Shown here in pieces: positions 2,884-18,401 of a stretch of 38,328 nt of DNA. The translations under genes and the position numbers were made by a program. The DNA comes from Flavobacteriaceae bacterium TMED81 (GTDB lineage: Bacteria; Bacteroidota; Bacteroidia; Flavobacteriales; Flavobacteriaceae). The stretch covers positions 1 through 38,328 of the forward strand of contig NHEI02000028.1 of assembly GCA_002171575.2 (NCBI GenBank), written 5' to 3'. Numbering within the stretch: position 1 is the stretch's first letter; every line of letters starts with the position of its first letter. The notes beneath the pieces were generated by a model. The model did not search any database. It saw only the letters and a program-made list of their open reading frames with translations, and was not told the DNA's origin.

Positions 2884-2891
2884 TACTTTTG
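2884..2891 (+). promoter_or_regulatory. Putative -7 box of the carH-like promoter
   Basis: TACTTTTG matches TAnnTTTG, 31 nt before the ATG at 2923; a TTTT at 2861-2864 lies 19 nt upstream. Confidence 0.5.
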
Positions 2892-2923
2892 TTTAATGTT
2901 TGTCAATTAAACGTTAAACAAAA
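2887..2923. promoter_or_regulatory. Putative operator of the MerR-B12 regulator (autoregulatory site)
   Basis: TTTTGTTTAA (2887-2896) and TTAAACAAAA (2914-2923) are perfect 10-bp arms; nested GTTTAAT (2891-2897)/ATTAAAC (2906-2912). It overlaps the -7 box and extends to the A of the start codon. Near-identical arms lie upstream of the photolyase operon. Confidence 0.6.
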
Positions 2924-3819
2924 TGGATCGGGTCAAAACAAGTTTTAGTATAAAAAATCTGGAGCATCTCTCCGGAATTAAAGCCCACACCATACGGATT
3001 TGGGAAAAAAGGTACAACCTTTTTGAGCCGGAACGCACAGAAACCAACATTCGCCTCTACAATCTTGATAGCTTGCAAAAGCTTCTCAACGTTTCGATGT
3101 TGTATAAAAATGGCTTTAAGATTTCGAAAATCGCCAGAATGGAGGTAAACGAAATCAAAGATAAAGTCCACACAATTACTCTTCAAAAGAGTCCTTACGA
3201 TTGGTCACTCGGTCTCTTTAAGCTATCAATGATCAATTTTGATCAGCGTTTATTTACAAACACGTTCGATGAGCTCATGGAAAAAATGAGTTTTGGTGAA
3301 ATTTACCAATCCATCTTCACTCCCCTGATGATCGAACTTGGCGTTTTATGGCAAACCAATTCCATCAGCCCATCTCACGAGCACTTTATAACGAGTTTGA
3401 TCAAACAAAAAATACATTCACTCTGTGAAAAGTTGCAAGAGAATCAACCTCAAAATACAGATCAAACTTTTGTGCTTTATCTCCCCGACAATGAGATCCA
3501 CGAACTGGGACTGCTTTATCTAAACTACGAGATTCTGGACCGTGGGTATAAAACTATCTTTTTAGGTCAATCCGTTCCGACAACAAGTCTATCTAATTTT
3601 CAAGACAAAGCAGATAAAATGGTTTTTGTATCCTGCTTTACGATCGAACCCAATCATGACCGTGTAGATGAGTATCTGGAAGAATTTGAAAAAGAGGTTT
3701 TATCAACGGAAGGTTCTGAGTTATTGATTACCGGATACCAAGCCAAATACATTACAAAACCCAAAAACCCTAGGGTTCGTATTTTTGAATCTTCTGCCGA
3801 ATTGATTAAAGAGTTATAA
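2923..3819 (+). CDS. MerR-family regulator with B12-binding domain (CarH/LitR-type predicted cobalamin photoreceptor)
   Basis: MerR HTH (FSIKNLEHLSGIKAHTIRIWEKRYNLFEPERTETNIRLYN); W-x9-EH (WQTNSISPSHEH); B12 motif EIHELG. Confidence 0.88.
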   Translation: MDRVKTSFSIKNLEHLSGIKAHTIRIWEKRYNLFEPERTETNIRLYNLDSLQKLLNVSMLYKNGFKISKIARMEVNEIKDKVHTITLQKSPYDWSLGLFKLSMINFDQRLFTNTFDELMEKMSFGEIYQSIFTPLMIELGVLWQTNSISPSHEHFITSLIKQKIHSLCEKLQENQPQNTDQTFVLYLPDNEIHELGLLYLNYEILDRGYKTIFLGQSVPTTSLSNFQDKADKMVFVSCFTIEPNHDRVDEYLEEFEKEVLSTEGSELLITGYQAKYITKPKNPRVRIFESSAELIKEL

Positions 3820-3891
3820 TTTTTTTCTTTGAAGTTGAATAAACAAGAAAAAAATTATAATTTGCAATTGGTAATTAGAGAAAGTTATTTT

Positions 3892-4731
3892 GTGAAATCT
3901 ATTTTTGATTCTGTATCGAAACGATGTAGCAAAGAAATCACGGAGTCGTATAGTACTTCATTTTCTTTGGCTACACGTATGCTATCATCTGAAATACGTC
4001 AAGACATATACAACATTTATGGTTTTGTCAGATTGGCGGACGAAATTGTTGATAGTTTTCACGATTATGATAAAGTGGCACTTCTAGACCGTTTTGAAGA
4101 CGATTTGGCATATGCACTGACGGAAAAAATCAGTACAAACCCTGTTCTGAATGCTTTCCAAGAGACCGTTCATCGCTACGAAATAGACAAAGAATTCATT
4201 GACGCTTTTATGCAAAGCATGCGCTGGGATCTATCAAAAAAGGTTTATCAAACAGATGAGGAGTATAAAAATTACATTTATGGTTCTGCTGACGTTGTTG
4301 GATTGATGTGTTTACGGGTTTTTGTCAAAGGAGACCGTGAGCTTTTCGACGAATTGAAATCTTCAGCCATGGCACTGGGTTCTGCCTTTCAAAAAGTAAA
4401 TTTTCTTCGTGATCTCAAAAATGACTACGAACAACTAGAGCGCTCTTATTTTCCGAATGTAAACCTCAGAGAGCTTGACGAGGCCTCCAAGCAGAAAATT
4501 ATCGCCGAAATTGAAGCCGATTTTCACAAAGGCCTGTCTGGAATTTTCAAATTACCCGATGCAGCAAAATTTGGTGTTTACACCGCCTATAAGTATTACC
4601 TCCGTCTGCTAAAGAAACTAAAACGGGTTCCCTCTATTGACATCAAAAACAAAAGAATACGTGTGGCCAATATCCAAAAAGTGGATGTGCTAGCTCGCTC
4701 CTATGTTCGGTATCGATTCAATATTCTGTAA
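3892..4731 (+). CDS. crtB: Phytoene/squalene synthase (phytoene synthase)
   Basis: SYSTSFSLATRML, YGFVRLADEIVD (DxxxD) and FQKVNFLRDLKNDYEQLERSYFP motifs; GTG start at 3892 (VKSIFDSVSKRC...) preferred over TTG at 3829. Confidence 0.88.
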   Translation: MKSIFDSVSKRCSKEITESYSTSFSLATRMLSSEIRQDIYNIYGFVRLADEIVDSFHDYDKVALLDRFEDDLAYALTEKISTNPVLNAFQETVHRYEIDKEFIDAFMQSMRWDLSKKVYQTDEEYKNYIYGSADVVGLMCLRVFVKGDRELFDELKSSAMALGSAFQKVNFLRDLKNDYEQLERSYFPNVNLRELDEASKQKIIAEIEADFHKGLSGIFKLPDAAKFGVYTAYKYYLRLLKKLKRVPSIDIKNKRIRVANIQKVDVLARSYVRYRFNIL

Positions 4732-4734
4732 TCC

Positions 4735-5184
4735 ATGCTCCTCACCATTCAGATTTTTATTTTTTTCGCCACCTTTATTTTTATGGAAGCTGTCGCATGG
4801 TTTTCCCACAAGTACATCATGCATGGGTTTTTATGGTCACTTCACAAAGACCATCACCACAAAGACCACGATTCAAATTTTGAAAGAAACGATGCCTTTT
4901 TTCTCTTTTATGCAGCTGTTAGCGCTGGTTTTGTGATTTTATGGGGAGAGTTTGGATTTTGGCCGGGAATGGCAATTGCCTTAGGGATTTTTGCTTATGG
5001 TCTCACTTATTTTTTTGTTCACGACATCTTTATCCATCAGCGCGTAAAATGGTTCCGCAATGCCAATACAACCTATGCAAAAGCGATTCGAAGGGCACAC
5101 AAAATTCATCATAAAAACCTAAACAAAGAAAATGGAGAATGCTATGGCATGCTCTGGGTGCCGATGAAGTATTTTAAGAAATAA
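4735..5184 (+). CDS. crtZ: Beta-carotene hydroxylase / fatty-acid hydroxylase superfamily
   Basis: Histidine motifs HKYIMHG, HKDHHH, HDIFIHQR, RRAHKIHHK; follows crtB with a 3-nt gap. Confidence 0.85.
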   Translation: MLLTIQIFIFFATFIFMEAVAWFSHKYIMHGFLWSLHKDHHHKDHDSNFERNDAFFLFYAAVSAGFVILWGEFGFWPGMAIALGIFAYGLTYFFVHDIFIHQRVKWFRNANTTYAKAIRRAHKIHHKNLNKENGECYGMLWVPMKYFKK

Positions 5185-10279: not shown

Positions 10280-11119
10280 TTATTCAGCACCCCATTTGGC
10301 CAATTGTTTTTTATTGAGGTCGATGTATTGCTGGTTTCCAGAAGTTGTCGCCAATTGAAGAGAAGTTTTCGCAGCATCGATGGCCAAATCCAATTCCCCA
10401 AGTGCTTCGTGAATCAATGATTTTTGACGAAAAAACCAAAATGCGTCAGTTCTCAATTCAACTGCCTTTGTAATCCATGCCTTTGCTTTTTGCAAATCTT
10501 TATCATTGTTTAAATAATAAACTGCTGCAGTGTATAAATCATTGGCGGAGGCAGAATCTGGGTTCATTTTTGAGATATGAGACGTCATGATCTCGTTTGT
10601 TGGAAAAGTCATCGGGATCTGTATCGCAACTTGTTCCCAAGCCAATTGCAAATCCGCTGAATCGAGGGATATGTTTTCGAGTGATATGGAAAATGACTCT
10701 GCATGATCGATGGTTTGCACTTTTGCCCGAACAGCAAGACTCACTTTGTCCTCGTCCCAGCTTGAAGGCGTTCCCCAATTATTGGTTTCAGTATAGAAAT
10801 ACACCATCCAAACGTCTTGTTTCGGTATGGTATACAGAGAATAGGTTCCCTTGGAAAGGGGTTGGCCAGAAACCGTTACATCGTCAGAAAAGGTGATCAG
10901 TGTATTTCGGTTTGCACCCGTACGCCATAATACGTCGTAGGGAACCAAGTCGCCAAATATGTTTCGATCTCGCACTGCTGGTCGAGAATATTCAATGGTC
11001 ACCTCGGACAAACCAACCGTTTGAACCAACTTTGCTTTCGGACTGAGTTGTGGTCGTGGCAAATGTGCATGAACCGTAAAAGAGATCAATAATAGAGATA
11101 GATAAAATATGGGTTTCAT
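10280..11119 (-). CDS. DUF2911 domain protein with C-terminal TPR, secreted
   Basis: Signal peptide MKPIFYLSLLLISFTVHA; VEYSRPAVRDRNIFGDLVPYDVLWRTGANRNT typical of DUF2911; start trimmed from 11182 to 11119. Confidence 0.8.
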   Translation of the reverse strand: MKPIFYLSLLLISFTVHAHLPRPQLSPKAKLVQTVGLSEVTIEYSRPAVRDRNIFGDLVPYDVLWRTGANRNTLITFSDDVTVSGQPLSKGTYSLYTIPKQDVWMVYFYTETNNWGTPSSWDEDKVSLAVRAKVQTIDHAESFSISLENISLDSADLQLAWEQVAIQIPMTFPTNEIMTSHISKMNPDSASANDLYTAAVYYLNNDKDLQKAKAWITKAVELRTDAFWFFRQKSLIHEALGELDLAIDAAKTSLQLATTSGNQQYIDLNKKQLAKWGAE

Positions 11120-11186
11120 TGTTTTTGAATTTAGAATTTCTAAACTACACTTTTTGTGTAAATCATGATGAAATTTTAACAATTTA

Positions 11187-11222
11187 TTTTGTTTAATCTT
11201 TTTTTTAATTCATTAAACAAAA
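11187..11222. promoter_or_regulatory. Putative light-regulator operator upstream of the photolyase operon
   Basis: TTTTGTTTAAT (11187-11197) - 14 bp - ATTAAACAAAA (11212-11222): perfect 11-bp inverted arms, same arms as the site in front of the CarH-like gene; ends 3 bp before a TATCTTTG -7 box. Confidence 0.62.
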
Positions 11223-11225
11223 GAG

Positions 11226-11233
11226 TATCTTTG
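11226..11233 (+). promoter_or_regulatory. -7 box of the photolyase-operon promoter
   Basis: TATCTTTG matches TAnnTTTG, 16 nt upstream of the GTG at 11250. Confidence 0.55.
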
Positions 11234-11249
11234 ACAAAAATGAAAAAAC

Positions 11250-11708
11250 GTGTACAGCTATACATCTGAACAAAATTTACCGATCGACATGGAAAAGGCA
11301 TGGGATTTTTTATCAGATCCCAAAAACCTAAAAACGATTACGCCAGATTATATGGGCTTTGATATCTTGTCTGGTGCTGATCGCAAAATGTTTCCAGGGC
11401 AAATCATACAATATATCCTCACCCCCATTCTCGGAATCCCATTTCGTTGGGTGACTGAAATTACGCATGTTGAAAAGGGGCATTATTTTGTTGATGAACA
11501 GCGCTTTGGACCGTATACGTTTTGGCACCACAAACATTTTATCAAAGAGATTCCCAATGGTGTTCAAATGACAGATATCGTTGATTACAAGCTTCCTTTG
11601 GGGTTTCTCGGGCGATTTGCCCACTGGCTGTTTGTTAAAAAGAAAGTCAAATCAATTTTTGATTATCGTGAACAAAAGCTCGAAAGCATTTTTGGAAAAT
11701 ATAAATAA
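11250..11708 (+). CDS. SRPBCC (START/Bet v1-like) family protein
   Basis: YTSEQNLPIDMEKAWDFLSDPKNLKTITPDYMGFDIL...; first gene of the photolyase operon. Confidence 0.85.
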   Translation: MYSYTSEQNLPIDMEKAWDFLSDPKNLKTITPDYMGFDILSGADRKMFPGQIIQYILTPILGIPFRWVTEITHVEKGHYFVDEQRFGPYTFWHHKHFIKEIPNGVQMTDIVDYKLPLGFLGRFAHWLFVKKKVKSIFDYREQKLESIFGKYK

Positions 11709-11711
11709 CAT

Positions 11712-12404
11712 ATGAAAAAGAACATTTTATTGATCGGCGGATCGAGCGGGATTGGTCTGGCCACCGCCAAACTACTCACTGAAAGTCATGAGGTGTGTAT
11801 CGCCTCCCGCTCATCGGATTCCCTAACAGGACTCGACATCCATCACCTTCCTTTTGATGTGACTACAGATGATTTGTCCACACTGGACTTACCCGCAGAA
11901 CTATCAGGACTTGTTTATTGTCCAGGGAGCATCAATTTGCGACCGTTTAAGGGGCTAAAACCAGAAGCATTCGAGGCAGATTTTCAAATCAATGTCATGG
12001 GCTTTGTCAAGTCTTTGCAAGCAGTTCTCCCAAAGCTCACAACCAATAGCAGTGTGGTCTTGTACAGTACCGTTGCTGTAAAAGTGGGCATGCCCTTTCA
12101 CGCCAGTGTAGCGGCATCTAAAGGAGCCCTTGAAGGCCTTGGCAAATCACTTGCTGCTGAGCTTGCACCCAAGACGCGAGTAAACATAATTGCACCATCA
12201 ATCACAAATACACCTTTGGCAGATCGATTTTTGAACAACGAAGCAAAAATGGAAAAGTCAGCGCAACGACACCCATTAAAGCGTGTGGGTGAAGCAAGTG
12301 ATATCGCAGCAATGACACGCTTTTTACTCAGCGATGATAGTAGCTGGATGACGGGGCAAATCCTCGGGCTAGATGGAGGAATGTCAACGTTAAACACACA
12401 TTAA
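11712..12404 (+). CDS. Short-chain dehydrogenase/reductase-fold protein lacking catalytic Tyr
   Basis: GGSSGIGLATA nucleotide-binding motif; C-terminal WMTGQILGLDGGM; the YxxxK position reads VAASK. Confidence 0.85.
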   Translation: MKKNILLIGGSSGIGLATAKLLTESHEVCIASRSSDSLTGLDIHHLPFDVTTDDLSTLDLPAELSGLVYCPGSINLRPFKGLKPEAFEADFQINVMGFVKSLQAVLPKLTTNSSVVLYSTVAVKVGMPFHASVAASKGALEGLGKSLAAELAPKTRVNIIAPSITNTPLADRFLNNEAKMEKSAQRHPLKRVGEASDIAAMTRFLLSDDSSWMTGQILGLDGGMSTLNTH

Positions 12405-12405
12405 T

Positions 12406-13707
12406 TTGGACTCGATTGCAATGTTTTGGTTTCGCAGGGATTTGCGTTTAGACGACAACGTCGGGCTTTATCATGCGATAAAAAATGAGACAAAACTAGT
12501 CCCTATCTTTATTTTTGACAGTGACATTTTAGACCGCCTTCCAAAAGAGGATCCGCGTGTCTGTTTTTTACACGAACAAATTGAAGAACTCAATCAACAA
12601 CTCGCTGAGTCGAATAAAAAAATTCATGTCTATCACGGCAAACCAATCGATATTTTTCGAAAAATCTTAAGCGCAAATGCAGTTCATGCAGTTTACACAA
12701 ACCGCGACTATGAGCCCTATGCCACACAAAGAGATGCAGAAATCAAGGCACTCCTTTCTGAAAATGACGTTACCTTTTCAACGTATAAAGACCATGTCAT
12801 CTTTGAACGAGATGAAGTCGTCAAATCGGATGGTACGCCCTATCGAGTATATACCCCCTATTCCCGTGTTTGGCTCGACAAATTTGATCGACAAGAGCAC
12901 CTCAAAAGCCATCGCATTGACGATTTTGAAAAACTCACGACCCTTGCAGATCACAACAATCCTACTTTAACAGATATCGGTTTTACAACATCAAAGATAA
13001 CAGCCCCGCAGTCCGATACTTCAGATGAAATCATAGACCAGTATGAGGCAAGACGAAACACCCCAGCTGTTGCAGGAACCTCCAAAGTCGGAGTTCATTT
13101 ACGGTTTGGTACGTTGAGCATTCGAAAAGCGGTTGCCAAGGGCTTGGAGTCTTCGAACCAAACCTTTTTAAAGGAGTTAATCTGGCGAGAATTTTTTATG
13201 CAGATTCTTTGGCATTTTCCCCATACCGAAAACAAAAGCTTTAAACCCCAATACGACCGCATCGAATGGCGAAACAACCCTGAGGAGTTCAAGTGTTGGT
13301 GCGATGGGGAAACGGGTTATCCTTTTGTGGATGCTGGTATGCGAGAATTAAATGAAACGGGCTTTATGCACAATCGGGTTCGGATGCTAGTCGGTAGTTT
13401 TTTGTGCAAACATTTGCTTATCGATTGGCGCTTGGGAGAGGCCTATTTTGCGGAAAAGCTCCTCGATTATGAAATGGCGAGTAATGTTGGCAATTGGCAA
13501 TGGGTTGCTGGGTGTGGTGTGGATGCAGCACCTTACTTTCGGATTTTTAATCCTACCGAGCAAATCAAAAAGTTTGACAAAGACCATACATACATCAAAA
13601 AATGGGTGCCAGATTACCAAACATCATCTTATCCAAAGCAAATTGTCGATCATAAAATGGCACGTGAACGATGCTTGGAAACTTATAAATCGGCTTTAAA
13701 CAAATGA
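12406..13707 (+). CDS. phr: Class I CPD deoxyribodipyrimidine photolyase
   Basis: MFWFRRDLRLDDN; KELIWREFFMQ; TGFMHNRVRMLVGSFL; DWRLGEAYFAEKLLDYEMASNVGNWQWVAGCGVDAAPYFRIFNP. TTG at 12406 or ATG at 12421. Confidence 0.93.
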   Translation: MDSIAMFWFRRDLRLDDNVGLYHAIKNETKLVPIFIFDSDILDRLPKEDPRVCFLHEQIEELNQQLAESNKKIHVYHGKPIDIFRKILSANAVHAVYTNRDYEPYATQRDAEIKALLSENDVTFSTYKDHVIFERDEVVKSDGTPYRVYTPYSRVWLDKFDRQEHLKSHRIDDFEKLTTLADHNNPTLTDIGFTTSKITAPQSDTSDEIIDQYEARRNTPAVAGTSKVGVHLRFGTLSIRKAVAKGLESSNQTFLKELIWREFFMQILWHFPHTENKSFKPQYDRIEWRNNPEEFKCWCDGETGYPFVDAGMRELNETGFMHNRVRMLVGSFLCKHLLIDWRLGEAYFAEKLLDYEMASNVGNWQWVAGCGVDAAPYFRIFNPTEQIKKFDKDHTYIKKWVPDYQTSSYPKQIVDHKMARERCLETYKSALNK

Positions 13708-13850
13708 GAGGGGTAAAAAAAGAAAACCTCCCTGAAAAAATTTGTTTGGTTTGTAAACGCCCGTTTAGTTGGCGTAGAAAATGGGAAAATAATTGGAACG
13801 AAGTCAAATATTGTAGTCAAAAATGCAGGAGAAACAAAACACCGCTTTAG
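13704..13850 (+). CDS. DUF2256 small zinc-ribbon-like protein (48 aa)
   Basis: Absent from the ORF track. MRGVKKENLPEKICLVCKRPFSWRRKWENNWNEVKYCSQKCRRNKTPL*; CxxC and CxxxC pairs; ATGA overlap with the upstream gene and 28-nt overlap with the downstream gene. Confidence 0.88.
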   Translation: MRGVKKENLPEKICLVCKRPFSWRRKWENNWNEVKYCSQKCRRNKTPL

Positions 13851-15118
13851 TTTGGTTTAGAAATGATCTGCGTGTTGTGGACAATCAATCGCTTTACGAT
13901 GCGGCCACAAAGCATGACAAAGTGATTGGGCTTGTACTGATTCCTGCCGAATGGCTTGCTGAAACCCCGCTTGGATTTAAGAAAATGGAAGCATTTCGGG
14001 CTCGTTTTTTGTTGGAATCCATTGCCGATTTACAGCGCGATCTCGAATCCCATCACATCCCCCTCATCGTTAAAATCGATGATGGAACGTCTTTGACTCA
14101 AATTTGTAGCCAATATCAAATCACGGACATCTACCTACAAAAGGAGTGGACAAAAGATGAGATTGACCAAGAAAAAGGAATCCCTGAATCGGTTGCGGTT
14201 CACAAGTCCTACAACCAATTTTTATTTCACCCCGATGACTTGCCAATCTCAATCGATGACTTGCCAGAAATTTTTACCGTCTTTCGTAAAATATGCGAAA
14301 AGAAAGTCAACGTTCGTCCTTGTGTGTTAGAACCGAGAAGATTAGCAGCAGAAAATGCGAAAATCGCCTCGTATACACCATTGACTTTGGAAGAACTCGG
14401 CTATGAGCCATTTGACATTCATCCCAATAGTGCATTTCCATTTCAGGGGGGCAGCCATGCCGCAGACGAGCGATTGAACCATTATTTTTGGACAACAAAA
14501 AAGTTATCCTACTATAAAAAAACACGAAATGGATTGGTGGGAACAGATTACAGTTCGAAGTTTTCCCCTTGGTTAGCCAACGGGTCGATATCGGCCAAAT
14601 CAATTTATTGGGCGGTCAAAGATTATGAGCAAAATGTGGCCAAAAACCAGTCCACCTATTGGTTGATTTTTGAATTGATTTGGAGAGATTACTTCAAATA
14701 CGTTTCCTTGCGACATGGAAATTCTATTTTTACTGTTGGGGGAATCAAAAACAGATCTTATGATTGGGGGAAAAATCCGCATGTGTTTCAGCAGTGGGTA
14801 AACGGAACAACCGCAGAACCATTTGTCAATGCCAATATGCTCGAACTCAAAAGAACAGGGTTTATGAGCAATCGAGGTCGGCAAAATGTAGCCAGTTATT
14901 TGGTCAAAACACTTCAAATGGACTGGCGCTGGGGCGCTGCCTATTTTGAAGCCCTGTTGATCGACTATGACGTTCATAGCAATTACGGAAACTGGATGTA
15001 TAATGCTGGTGTCGGGAATGACCCCAGAGATCGCGTTTTTAACGTACGCTTACAAGCAGATCGGTATGATGGAAATGGAAAATATCAGTCCATGTGGCTG
15101 CAAAAACAACTCTTTTAA
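13823..15118 (+). CDS. Cryptochrome DASH
   Basis: ALVWFRNDLRVVDN; YKKTRNGLVGTDYSSKFSPWLANGSIS; GFMSNRGRQNVASYL; DYDVHSNYGNWMYNAGVGNDPRDRVFNVRLQADRYD. Confidence 0.92.
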   Translation: MQEKQNTALVWFRNDLRVVDNQSLYDAATKHDKVIGLVLIPAEWLAETPLGFKKMEAFRARFLLESIADLQRDLESHHIPLIVKIDDGTSLTQICSQYQITDIYLQKEWTKDEIDQEKGIPESVAVHKSYNQFLFHPDDLPISIDDLPEIFTVFRKICEKKVNVRPCVLEPRRLAAENAKIASYTPLTLEELGYEPFDIHPNSAFPFQGGSHAADERLNHYFWTTKKLSYYKKTRNGLVGTDYSSKFSPWLANGSISAKSIYWAVKDYEQNVAKNQSTYWLIFELIWRDYFKYVSLRHGNSIFTVGGIKNRSYDWGKNPHVFQQWVNGTTAEPFVNANMLELKRTGFMSNRGRQNVASYLVKTLQMDWRWGAAYFEALLIDYDVHSNYGNWMYNAGVGNDPRDRVFNVRLQADRYDGNGKYQSMWLQKQLF

Positions 15119-16650
15119 TGGAAGTACGCTTAATTCTTGGGGATCAGCTCAATGCCGAACACAGTTGGTTTGAGGAAGTTAATGACAACGTGTGCTATGT
15201 CATGTTTGAAATGCGTCAGGAGACAGACTATGTCAAGCATCACATTCAAAAGGTTGTTGCCTTCTTTGGAGCCATGCGAAACTTTGCACGTGCAAGAGAG
15301 AAAGAGGGGCATCGAGTTTTGTATTACACCCTAGATGATTCGCAAAACGAGCAGGAGCTAGAGAAAAACCTCAACAAAGTCATTTCCCTTTTGGGTGCTA
15401 CACGCTTTGCCTACCAGCTGCCCGATGAGTTTCGACTCGACCAACAACTTCAAAGCTTCTGTAAGGGCTTAAAGATCTCGTCTGAGGCCGTTGACACGGA
15501 CCATTTTCTCACGACAAGGGATGAAATGGGGAAATTCTTTGCGGGAAAGAAAAAATGGGTAATGGAGTTTTTCTACCGCTATATGCGGAAAAAATTTGAT
15601 ATCCTGATGGTGCATGATCAGCCAGAAGGCGGGTCTTGGAATTATGACAAGTTTAATCGAAACAAATGGAACGGCTCTCCGGCCATTCCTCCGCCCTATC
15701 TGCCAAAAGTCGAGTACATTGAGCAACTCCAAAAGATGATCGAAGATCAAGGGATTATGACGCTAGGCAGTCTCTCTAAAGACCAATTTTTATTTCCAAT
15801 GACCCGAGAGGAGAGTATAAAACAGCTCGACTATTTTTGCGAAAATCTGCTTATAGACTTTGGGAGCTTTCAAGATGCGATGCATCAAGAAGAAACCAAC
15901 CTATTCCATGCGAGGATTTCCTTTGCCTTGAATGTCAAAATCCTTCATCCTTTAGAGGTCATCAATCATGCCATTGAGGCCTATCGAAAACAACCCGACA
16001 CCATATCCCTTTCGCAGGTTGAGGGCTTTGTGAGGCAAGTGTTGGGGTGGCGAGAATACATCCGTGGACTGTATTGGAAAGAAATGCCAACTTATAAAGG
16101 GTTAAACGCCTTAGAAAATACCAATCCCCTTCCCGATTTCTATTGGACTGGTGAAACCAAAATGAATTGCTTGAGTACAACTGTAAAAAACAGTTTGGAG
16201 CATGCCTATGCCCATCATATCCAACGATTGATGATTACTGGAAATTTTGCACTCCTCGCCCAAACCCACCCCGATGCGGTAGATGAATGGTATTTAGGGA
16301 TCTATGCCGATGCCGTAGAATGGGTACAACTGCCAAACACACGCGGAATGAGTCAATATGCCGATGGGGGAATGGTGGCAACGAAACCTTATGTTTCCTC
16401 AGGGTCTTATGTCAACAAAATGAGTAATTATTGCTCTTCTTGTAGCTACAACCACAAAAAGAGATTGGGAGATGACGCTTGTCCGTTCAATAGCTTGTAT
16501 TGGAACTTTTTGGACGACAAAAAAGATTTCTTAAAAAGCAACAATCGTATGGGAATGATGCTCAATTTGTTGCGGAAAATCAAACCGGAGGAATTGGCAG
16601 CCATAAAAACACGTGCTTACGGAATCATTGCCAATCCCGATGCCTACTAA
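15118..16650 (+). CDS. FeS-cluster bacterial cryptochrome/(6-4) photolyase (FeS-BCP, PhrB-like)
   Basis: [16 protein letters not shown]-terminus; [15 protein letters not shown]; four-Cys pattern NCLSTT ... CSSC-x12-C ([18 protein letters not shown]). Starts at ATG 15118 (TAATG overlap), not 15094. Confidence 0.92.
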
Positions 16651-18118
16651 AGCAGACCTTTCCATATTTTGGTTTAAAAGAGACCTTCGCGTCGTGGACA
16701 ACCCTGCACTCCAAGCCGCTGTGCTTGACCCTACCCCAACCCTTTTGGTGTATAGTTTCGAACCCATGCTACTCAAAAACGATCATTACGACAACCGGCA
16801 TTGGCAGTTTATCTGGGAAAGTCTTGCGGAGTTAAATCAATTCTTTTCGCAATACGACACCAAAATTCTCATTTGTAGTACAGATATACTGACCCTTTTT
16901 ACAGAAATCCAAAAGAACTTCACTGTCAAATCCATATACAGCCATCAGGAAACTGGGCTTACTTGTACCTATGAGAGGGATCAGTTGGTTGATCGGTATT
17001 GTCGATCTGAGAGGATTAAATGGAATGAGTTTACAAATCAAGGCGTTTTTCGCGGGCTTTCAAATCGAAAAAATTGGCGTAAAAAATGGGGTCAATTCAT
17101 GTCTAAACCCATACAACCATGGGAAACAACATCACATTCATTTGTTTCCAATTTAGCGATTGATTCGATTGGGATTGATGCTTTTGAATGGAAAAGTTCC
17201 TCAACTGATCAGATTAGACAAAAAGGAGGGACAAAACAAGGGCTCGCCTACTTGAATAGCTTTATCAGCAGTCGTCACAAATCCTATCAAAACTCGATAT
17301 CAAAACCGGAATTGTCTCGCAAAGCGTGCAGTCGATTGTCGCCTTACATTTCTTGGGGGAACCTTTCAGTTCGCTATGTATGGCAAACCGCAGAGCAAGC
17401 CAAACGCGATGGTGCCTCACGATTTCAACTACAAGCTTTTACCTCACGTTTGCGCTGGCAAGCCCATTTCATTCAAAAGTTTGAAATGGAAGACCGCATG
17501 GAATTTGAAAGCATCAATAAAGGATATGCCGCTTTGGAAAAATCCCCCAACGAATCTTATATACAGGCATGGAAAACAGGACAGACTGGTTTTCCATTGG
17601 TGGATGCTTCCATGCGTTGCTTGATGCAAACTGGTTATGTCAATTTTCGAATGCGTGCCATGCTCGTCTCCTTTTTTACCCATCATTTATGGCAGCCCTG
17701 GCAACTCGGTGTCAAGCATTTGGCAAAACAATTTTTGGATTTTGAACCAGGAATCCATTATCCCCAATTCCAAATGCAAGCAGGGGTAACTGGAATCAAT
17801 AAGTTGCGCATCTATAACCCCGTCAAAAATAGTATCACTCATGATACAGAGGGTGTGTTTATCGGCAAATGGGTACCTGAGCTTGAAAAGCTCCCATTGC
17901 ACTTGCAGCACGAACCGTGGAAGATCACCCCAATTGAGAAAGAACTCTATGGTTTCGCTTTGGGACAAGACTATCCAGAACCCATTGTTGACTTGCAACA
18001 CGCAGCAAAGCATGCCTCCACCAAGCTATGGGGGATGAAAAAAAAGGGGAGTGTTCGGGCAGAATCGCGGCGCATTCTCTCAAAACACACCTTGGCAGAC
18101 AGAAACAACTTTGATTAG
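16640..18118 (+). CDS. Divergent photolyase/cryptochrome-family FAD protein
   Basis: [38 protein letters not shown] domain with noncanonical [19 protein letters not shown] at 16640 overlaps the upstream stop. Confidence 0.88.
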
Positions 18119-18119
18119 G

Positions 18120-18401
18120 ATGAAGAAAAAGCAATTTGGCGTTAAAGAAATCGATCGTATCATTGAAATGGCATGGGAAGACCGAACACCATTTGACGCC
18201 ATTTCATTTCAGTTTGGCATCAAAGAGCAAGAAGTCATTACAATCATGCGCAACAACCTCAAGCCCTCTAGTTTTCGTCTATGGAGAGCTCGTGTACAGG
18301 GTAGAAAGACCAAGCACAGCAAACAAAGAGGAGATGATGTCAATCGATTTAAATGTAGCCGCCAGCGAGGGATTAGCAACAATAAGGTTTCGAAACGATA
18401 G
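18120..18401 (+). CDS. TIGR03643 family protein
   Basis: GVKEIDRIIEMAWEDRTPFDAISFQFGIKEQEVITIMRNNLKPSSFRLWRARVQGRKTKH. Confidence 0.85.
   Translation: MKKKQFGVKEIDRIIEMAWEDRTPFDAISFQFGIKEQEVITIMRNNLKPSSFRLWRARVQGRKTKHSKQRGDDVNRFKCSRQRGISNNKVSKR

Follow-up and report, generated by a model that had tools for sequence, protein, structure and literature searches.

A conserved spaced palindrome before a flavobacterial photolyase operon is probably the operator of a CarH-like repressor

An eight-gene photolyase operon of Flavobacteriaceae bacterium TMED81 is preceded by a palindrome, which raises the question of which protein acts there and in response to what. A sequence-only reading of the window (the whole stretch of DNA that was analysed, 38,328 nucleotides) had proposed trans action of a CarH-like protein on it, with RNA polymerase blocked in the dark. 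It had described perfect 11-bp arms with an N14 gap, ending 3 bp before a -7 box, and both statements hold exactly:

11187 to 11222, no strand assigned: operator of the photolyase operon, TTTTGTTTAAT-N14-ATTAAACAAAA, conserved in the canonical N16 form TTGTTTAA-N16-TTAAACAA
11226 to 11233, forward strand: TATCTTTG, a Bacteroidota-type -7 box (TAnnTTTG), 3 bp after the right operator arm

The exact arms occupy 11187-11197 and 11212-11222 and leave a gap of 14 bp. Coverage of the -33 region was claimed as well: this region does lie inside the operator spacer, but the TTG of the left arm, counted with TATCTTTG taken as the -7 box, is 34 bp upstream and too far for a -33 element. A divergent gene borders the same intergenic gap; it is called from a TTG at 10280-11182 but more likely starts at an ATG near 11121. 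Downstream, the operon does have eight genes, as the earlier reading had counted:

11250 to 11708, forward strand: first operon gene, GTG start, no Pfam match
11712 to 12404, forward strand: short-chain dehydrogenase (SDR)
12406 to 13707, forward strand: class-I deoxyribodipyrimidine photolyase
13704 to 13850, forward strand: DUF2256, 48 aa, overlapping both neighbours
13823 to 15118, forward strand: DASH-family cryptochrome (TIGR02765 above cut-off)
15094 to 16650, forward strand: DPRP, an FeS-BCP-like photolyase
16613 to 18118, forward strand: further photolyase/cryptochrome family protein
18051 to 18401, forward strand: DUF2805 / TIGR03643, the final operon gene, its true start probably inside

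We take the first gene to be SRPBCC-like, as its orthologues are annotated. It starts at a GTG at 11250; an ATG at 11240, preceded by six consecutive A, lies in a different frame. Since its orthologues begin with MK at the equivalent of 11240-11250, the start codon may have changed or the homopolymer length may be in error.

Could the palindrome be a chance inverted repeat in AT-rich DNA? Perfect 11-bp arms with a gap of 8-20 bp occur five times in the window versus 0.37 expected, three of the hits being one overlapping poly-T hairpin. Such arms are not unique in this AT-rich window, and the case for an operator therefore rests on comparison and conservation. The operator pattern itself, with up to three mismatches, had a single match in the window and none in 100 dinucleotide shuffles, and it is conserved at a fixed distance from the promoter across dozens of genera. 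This conservation leaves chance with practically no probability and rules it out. That is, the palindrome before the photolyase operon is confirmed as a real, widely conserved switch site.

The motif survey covered one genome per genus from 101 genera of the window's family (Flavobacteriaceae). The spacer distribution of TTGTTTAA-N{14,22}-TTAAACAA was concentrated at N16, and exact N16 sites occurred in 60 of the 101 genera, with 121 distinct sites retrieved; the reversed-pattern control gave 3 matches in 63 genomes scanned. A class-wide survey of 198 genomes found the site in 77 and the control in 3. The palindrome continues into its flanks, with TT on the left and AA on the right (75-78%); the ninth position favours C or T, and A/T is nearly exclusive at the next positions but one.

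For the first operon gene we fetched 80 named loci, 79 of them with enough upstream sequence. The operator (up to one mismatch) stood directly before the gene in 51 of the 79, and TAnnTTT[GA] followed 2-10 bp downstream of the operator in 53 of 54 sites (up to two mismatches). Most operator-less loci are rearranged, with the first gene inside a longer operon. In 19 of 24 rearranged loci, TTGTTTAA-N16-TTAAACAT or a near relative was found further upstream in the cluster; in the six examined, the gene after the near-copy is small, and DUF2805 comes next in most. Judged from these gene orders, the operator goes with the operon head and not with the gene, as expected of a promoter element.

A variant of the same operator lies at the regulator gene:

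2884 to 2891, forward strand: TACTTTTG, -7 box in the promoter of the regulator gene; it shares bases with the left operator arm
2887 to 2923, no strand assigned: N17 operator at the regulator gene; its 15-nt arms are 93% complementary, and it ends on the A of the regulator ATG
2923 to 3819, forward strand: CarH-like regulator with a MerR winged helix, a B12-binding four-helix bundle and a Rossmann-like domain (from Pfam, PDB sequence match, fold and residues)
3829 to 4731, forward strand: phytoene/squalene synthase family (CrtB-like), beside the regulator
4735 to 5184, forward strand: fatty acid hydroxylase superfamily (CrtZ-like)

The regulator copy lies 8.3 kb upstream of the operon copy, as had been stated. 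Calling the latter a second copy of the operator was right in that the two are variants of one operator, but they are not identical: the inner arms of the regulator copy are N17 apart, one spacer base more than in the N16 operon copy. At some loci N17 sites free of mismatches are seen again, which makes the regulator copy an accepted variant. A sister metagenome-assembled genome (L160) retains both copies, N17 and N16. Directly upstream of the regulator operator, positions 2608-2858 hold two tandem, near-identical tRNA-Lys(TTT) genes and then a tRNA-Leu(GAG).

Across the survey, sites precede the regulator itself or, more often, sit between the regulator end and crtI, and at these regulator-crtI sites the crtI -7 box is inside the operator. 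A homologue of the regulator was detected in 79 of the 101 genera. Exact N16 sites were present in 59 of the 79 genomes with the regulator versus 1 of the 22 without it (Fisher p=1.7e-9, a significance that is overstated in that the test treats genera as independent); 20 of the 79 regulator-bearing genomes have no exact N16 site. The sole genome with an exact N16 site but no detected regulator, G080, is 81% complete. Might another co-occurring regulator, for example a different MerR- or TetR-type protein, bind the palindrome instead? A few sites adjoin TetR-type genes, and sites without a detected regulator exist in G080 (exact) and G056 (two mismatches, before proteorhodopsin). Yet G056, like G080, is incomplete (86%), sites lie at and beside the CarH-like regulator in many genera, and the half-site fits the CarH element. 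Together with the skewed distribution of sites, this makes another regulator very improbable. The proposed trans action of the CarH-like protein is strongly supported by the co-occurrence, by the sister genome and by the tracking of the operon head.

Which other genes might belong to the regulon? Among the genes adjoining the 121 exact N16 sites were fasciclin-domain genes (30), crtI (15), the photolyase operon (10), a TetR-type gene opposite htpG (7), proteorhodopsin/blh (3), mevalonate-kinase-like genes (2) and folE (1), where adjacency does not equal control: mnmA is listed because it is divergent from fasciclin genes. Fasciclin-domain genes are the commonest operator neighbours, above crtI or photolyase (for example L035:1501-1532). 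In the window's genome, 77% complete, no match to PF02469 was found.

Proteorhodopsin was present in 21 of the 101 genomes. Nine of the 19 proteorhodopsin genes with readable upstream sequence have an operator with up to two mismatches, ending 9-24 bp before the start, and the reversed control at the same 19 upstream regions never came under three mismatches. Genome G057 combines a 242-aa proteorhodopsin with an exact operator. The window's genome encodes one, too:

Contig G000:C14, 549 to 1331 (locus L262, 549-1532): proteorhodopsin gene with a Blh-like gene as its divergent neighbour

A one-mismatch operator overlaps its promoter, contains the -7 box TAGATTTG and ends 16 bp before the start codon. 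Another one-mismatch operator (L261:1501-1532, G000:C4:42146-42177) is located 3.8 kb past the window end, in a stretch rich in N, with htpG about 80 bp after it and a divergent fabH-like gene 180 bp away; in other genera the site separates htpG from a TetR-type gene or from fabH. A third exact site, of N17 form, between cysteine-synthase-like and prfB-like genes (G000:C7:3241-3273), is probably due to chance. Other two-mismatch sites in the window's genome were no commoner than the reversed control would give (7 versus 5 in all), so only sites with no or one mismatch were used there. The target classes of known function, photorepair, carotenoids and proteorhodopsin/retinal, all fit light. In Chryseobacterium lacus crt genes are light-induced and the authors report no car or lit genes; that species is therefore no test of a CarH-like regulator.

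The regulator comprises the Pfam domains MerR_1 and B12-binding_2 in the CarH order. Its AlphaFold2 model, built with 30 orthologues, reached a mean pLDDT of 87.6, and in the PDB this predicted structure best matches full-length T. thermophilus CarH (E 2e-14). Taken alone, the cobalamin-binding domain superposes with a target TM-score of about 0.8; the TM of the whole chain is low owing to how the domains are placed. W143, E153, H154 and H193 are invariant in the 30 orthologues, H193 being the expected cobalt ligand, and in 30 of 30 W143 with E153-H154 forms the Wx9EH motif of adenosyl contacts that separates CarH from CarA. Of the B12 motif D/ExHx2G - SxT/V - GG, ExH is found in 30 of 30 and G196 in 27 of 30, the second part reads SxxT, and GG is reduced to a single Gly (G271). 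The His132 position is Gln144 in 29 of 30 orthologues and Leu in one. The recognition-helix motif RxWERRY is present as RIWEKRY (K for R in 29 of 30). From the light-responsive signature of SignatureFinder, GxxW (30/30), EH (30/30) and GxxxP (29/30) are fully or nearly retained, and GxxH is mostly NxxH. Against the NCBIfam TransRegCarH equivalog the regulator scores 64.7 bits, below the cut-off of 400. The operator half-site TAAACA fits TnnACA, but the arms are inverted with N16 and do not form tandem 11-bp direct repeats. Since it lacks His132, GG and GxxH, the regulator is CarH-like and not a canonical CarH.

His132 of T. thermophilus CarH (TtCarH) takes hold of the cobalt on exposure to light and is needed for the bis-His light state and light-driven tetramer disassembly, and it is found in many, not all, CarH proteins. 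By analogy with SasPcob, which has Gln, light sensing seems compatible with Gln144, in which case the mechanism must differ from that of TtCarH. The window's genome encodes an adenosyltransferase that makes AdoCbl, and the occurrence of this enzyme goes with that of the regulator (p=0.007); no PduO-/BtuR-type match was obtained in the near-complete genomes G008 and G065, both of which have the regulator and exact operators. The pairing of site and protein might hold with a regulator that is no direct AdoCbl light sensor: one that is CarA-like with an antirepressor, reads corrinoids or redox state, or carries another chromophore. The missing His132, GG and GxxH and the two genomes without adenosyltransferase would suit such a protein, and B12-independent CarA and a LitR class with another chromophore are on record. 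Against this stand the intact Wx9EH, whose loss marks CarA, the Gln at the His132 position of light-responsive SasPcob (PMC11796333) and target genes that fit light, and we consider a regulator of this kind rather unlikely.

Our preferred reading, which we hold to be probable, has a CarH-like repressor occupying the site as its operator in the dark and letting go in the light by way of AdoCbl, with repair genes, the crt operon and proteorhodopsin under its control. We infer binding by the CarH-like protein, repression, and AdoCbl and light as the signal from the operator, its promoter geometry, its conservation and its tracking of the operon head, the co-occurrence, the fold and the adenosyl-contact residues. 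In the dark the regulator, probably AdoCbl-loaded and oligomeric, would bind the two inverted TnnACA-type half-sites TGTTTA and TAAACA, 24 bp apart centre to centre. It would then cover about -50 to -13 of the operon promoter and exclude RNA polymerase. Light would break the Co-C bond, the regulator would release the DNA, and the eight repair genes, the regulator's crt operon and, in the window's genome, proteorhodopsin would be transcribed. The polymerase block of the earlier reading fits the overlap of the operator with the -33/-7 region; its dependence on darkness and B12 would accord with the fold and the AdoCbl-contact residues, less so with the missing His132, GG and GxxH.

Where the operator lies with respect to the -7 box depends on the target class: it is upstream of it at the photolyase operon, over it at crtI and proteorhodopsin, and downstream of it at the regulator. 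Despite this variation it always overlaps the polymerase site, which points to occlusion. MerR-family proteins can also activate by reshaping a promoter, and an operator upstream of the -7 box, as at the photolyase promoter, would suit an activator. Such a role is hardly probable given the varied operator position, the arms too far apart for a classical MerR dimer site, and CarH/LitR being negative regulators.

How does this repressor system compare with known ones? It shares with TtCarH (PDB 5c8d, 5c8e, 5c8f) the domain order and fold, the conserved Trp131, Glu141, His142 and His177, and the TnnACA half-site; it differs in having Gln for His132, a single Gly for GG, and two inverted arms with N16 where the TtCarH operator consists of three tandem 11-bp direct repeats. 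As in myxobacterial CarH/CarA, the regulator lies beside crt and the operator over the promoter, and myxobacterial operator design is plastic (PMC9304148). Wx9EH puts the flavobacterial regulator on the CarH side of the myxobacterial CarH/CarA split (PMC9304148). Myxobacterial operators are direct repeats at carotenoid promoters, whereas here a spaced palindrome is found at photolyase, carotenoid, fasciclin and proteorhodopsin promoters. CtMerR (Chloracidobacterium) and SasPcob likewise have cobalamin photoreceptor domains without His at 132 (Arg and Gln, respectively; PMC11796333), and the fold matches of the regulator model include 8jbs/8jbt and 8j2x. Unlike these proteins, the flavobacterial regulator lacks GxxH, and PMC11796333 gives no operator. 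A MerR-family gene before crtI in Sediminicola sp. YIK13, probably an orthologue of the regulator, is annotated only, with no operator, regulon or function named (PMC4732338).

As a type, CarH/LitR photoregulation is known. Novelty lies in how the operator is built, in how broad the candidate regulon is, with proteorhodopsin in it, and in a CarH-like sensor that has no His132. In the open-access literature we found no description of the flavobacterial operator, its regulon or such a sensor; subscription papers were mostly outside the search. An eye-read palindrome has thereby become a family-wide, testable candidate light regulon with an explicit operator sequence, and the regulator would be an example from nature of a CarH-like protein lacking the His132 switch. 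Tentatively, we think it quite possible, if short of probable, that a CarH-like repressor with a non-bis-His switch and a spaced palindrome governs a photoregulon that reaches across much of the class and joins photorepair, carotenoids, proteorhodopsin and fasciclin and includes a light switch for flavobacterial proteorhodopsin. For the rise of proteorhodopsin expression in the light in flavobacteria, the operator over the proteorhodopsin promoter is a concrete candidate explanation.
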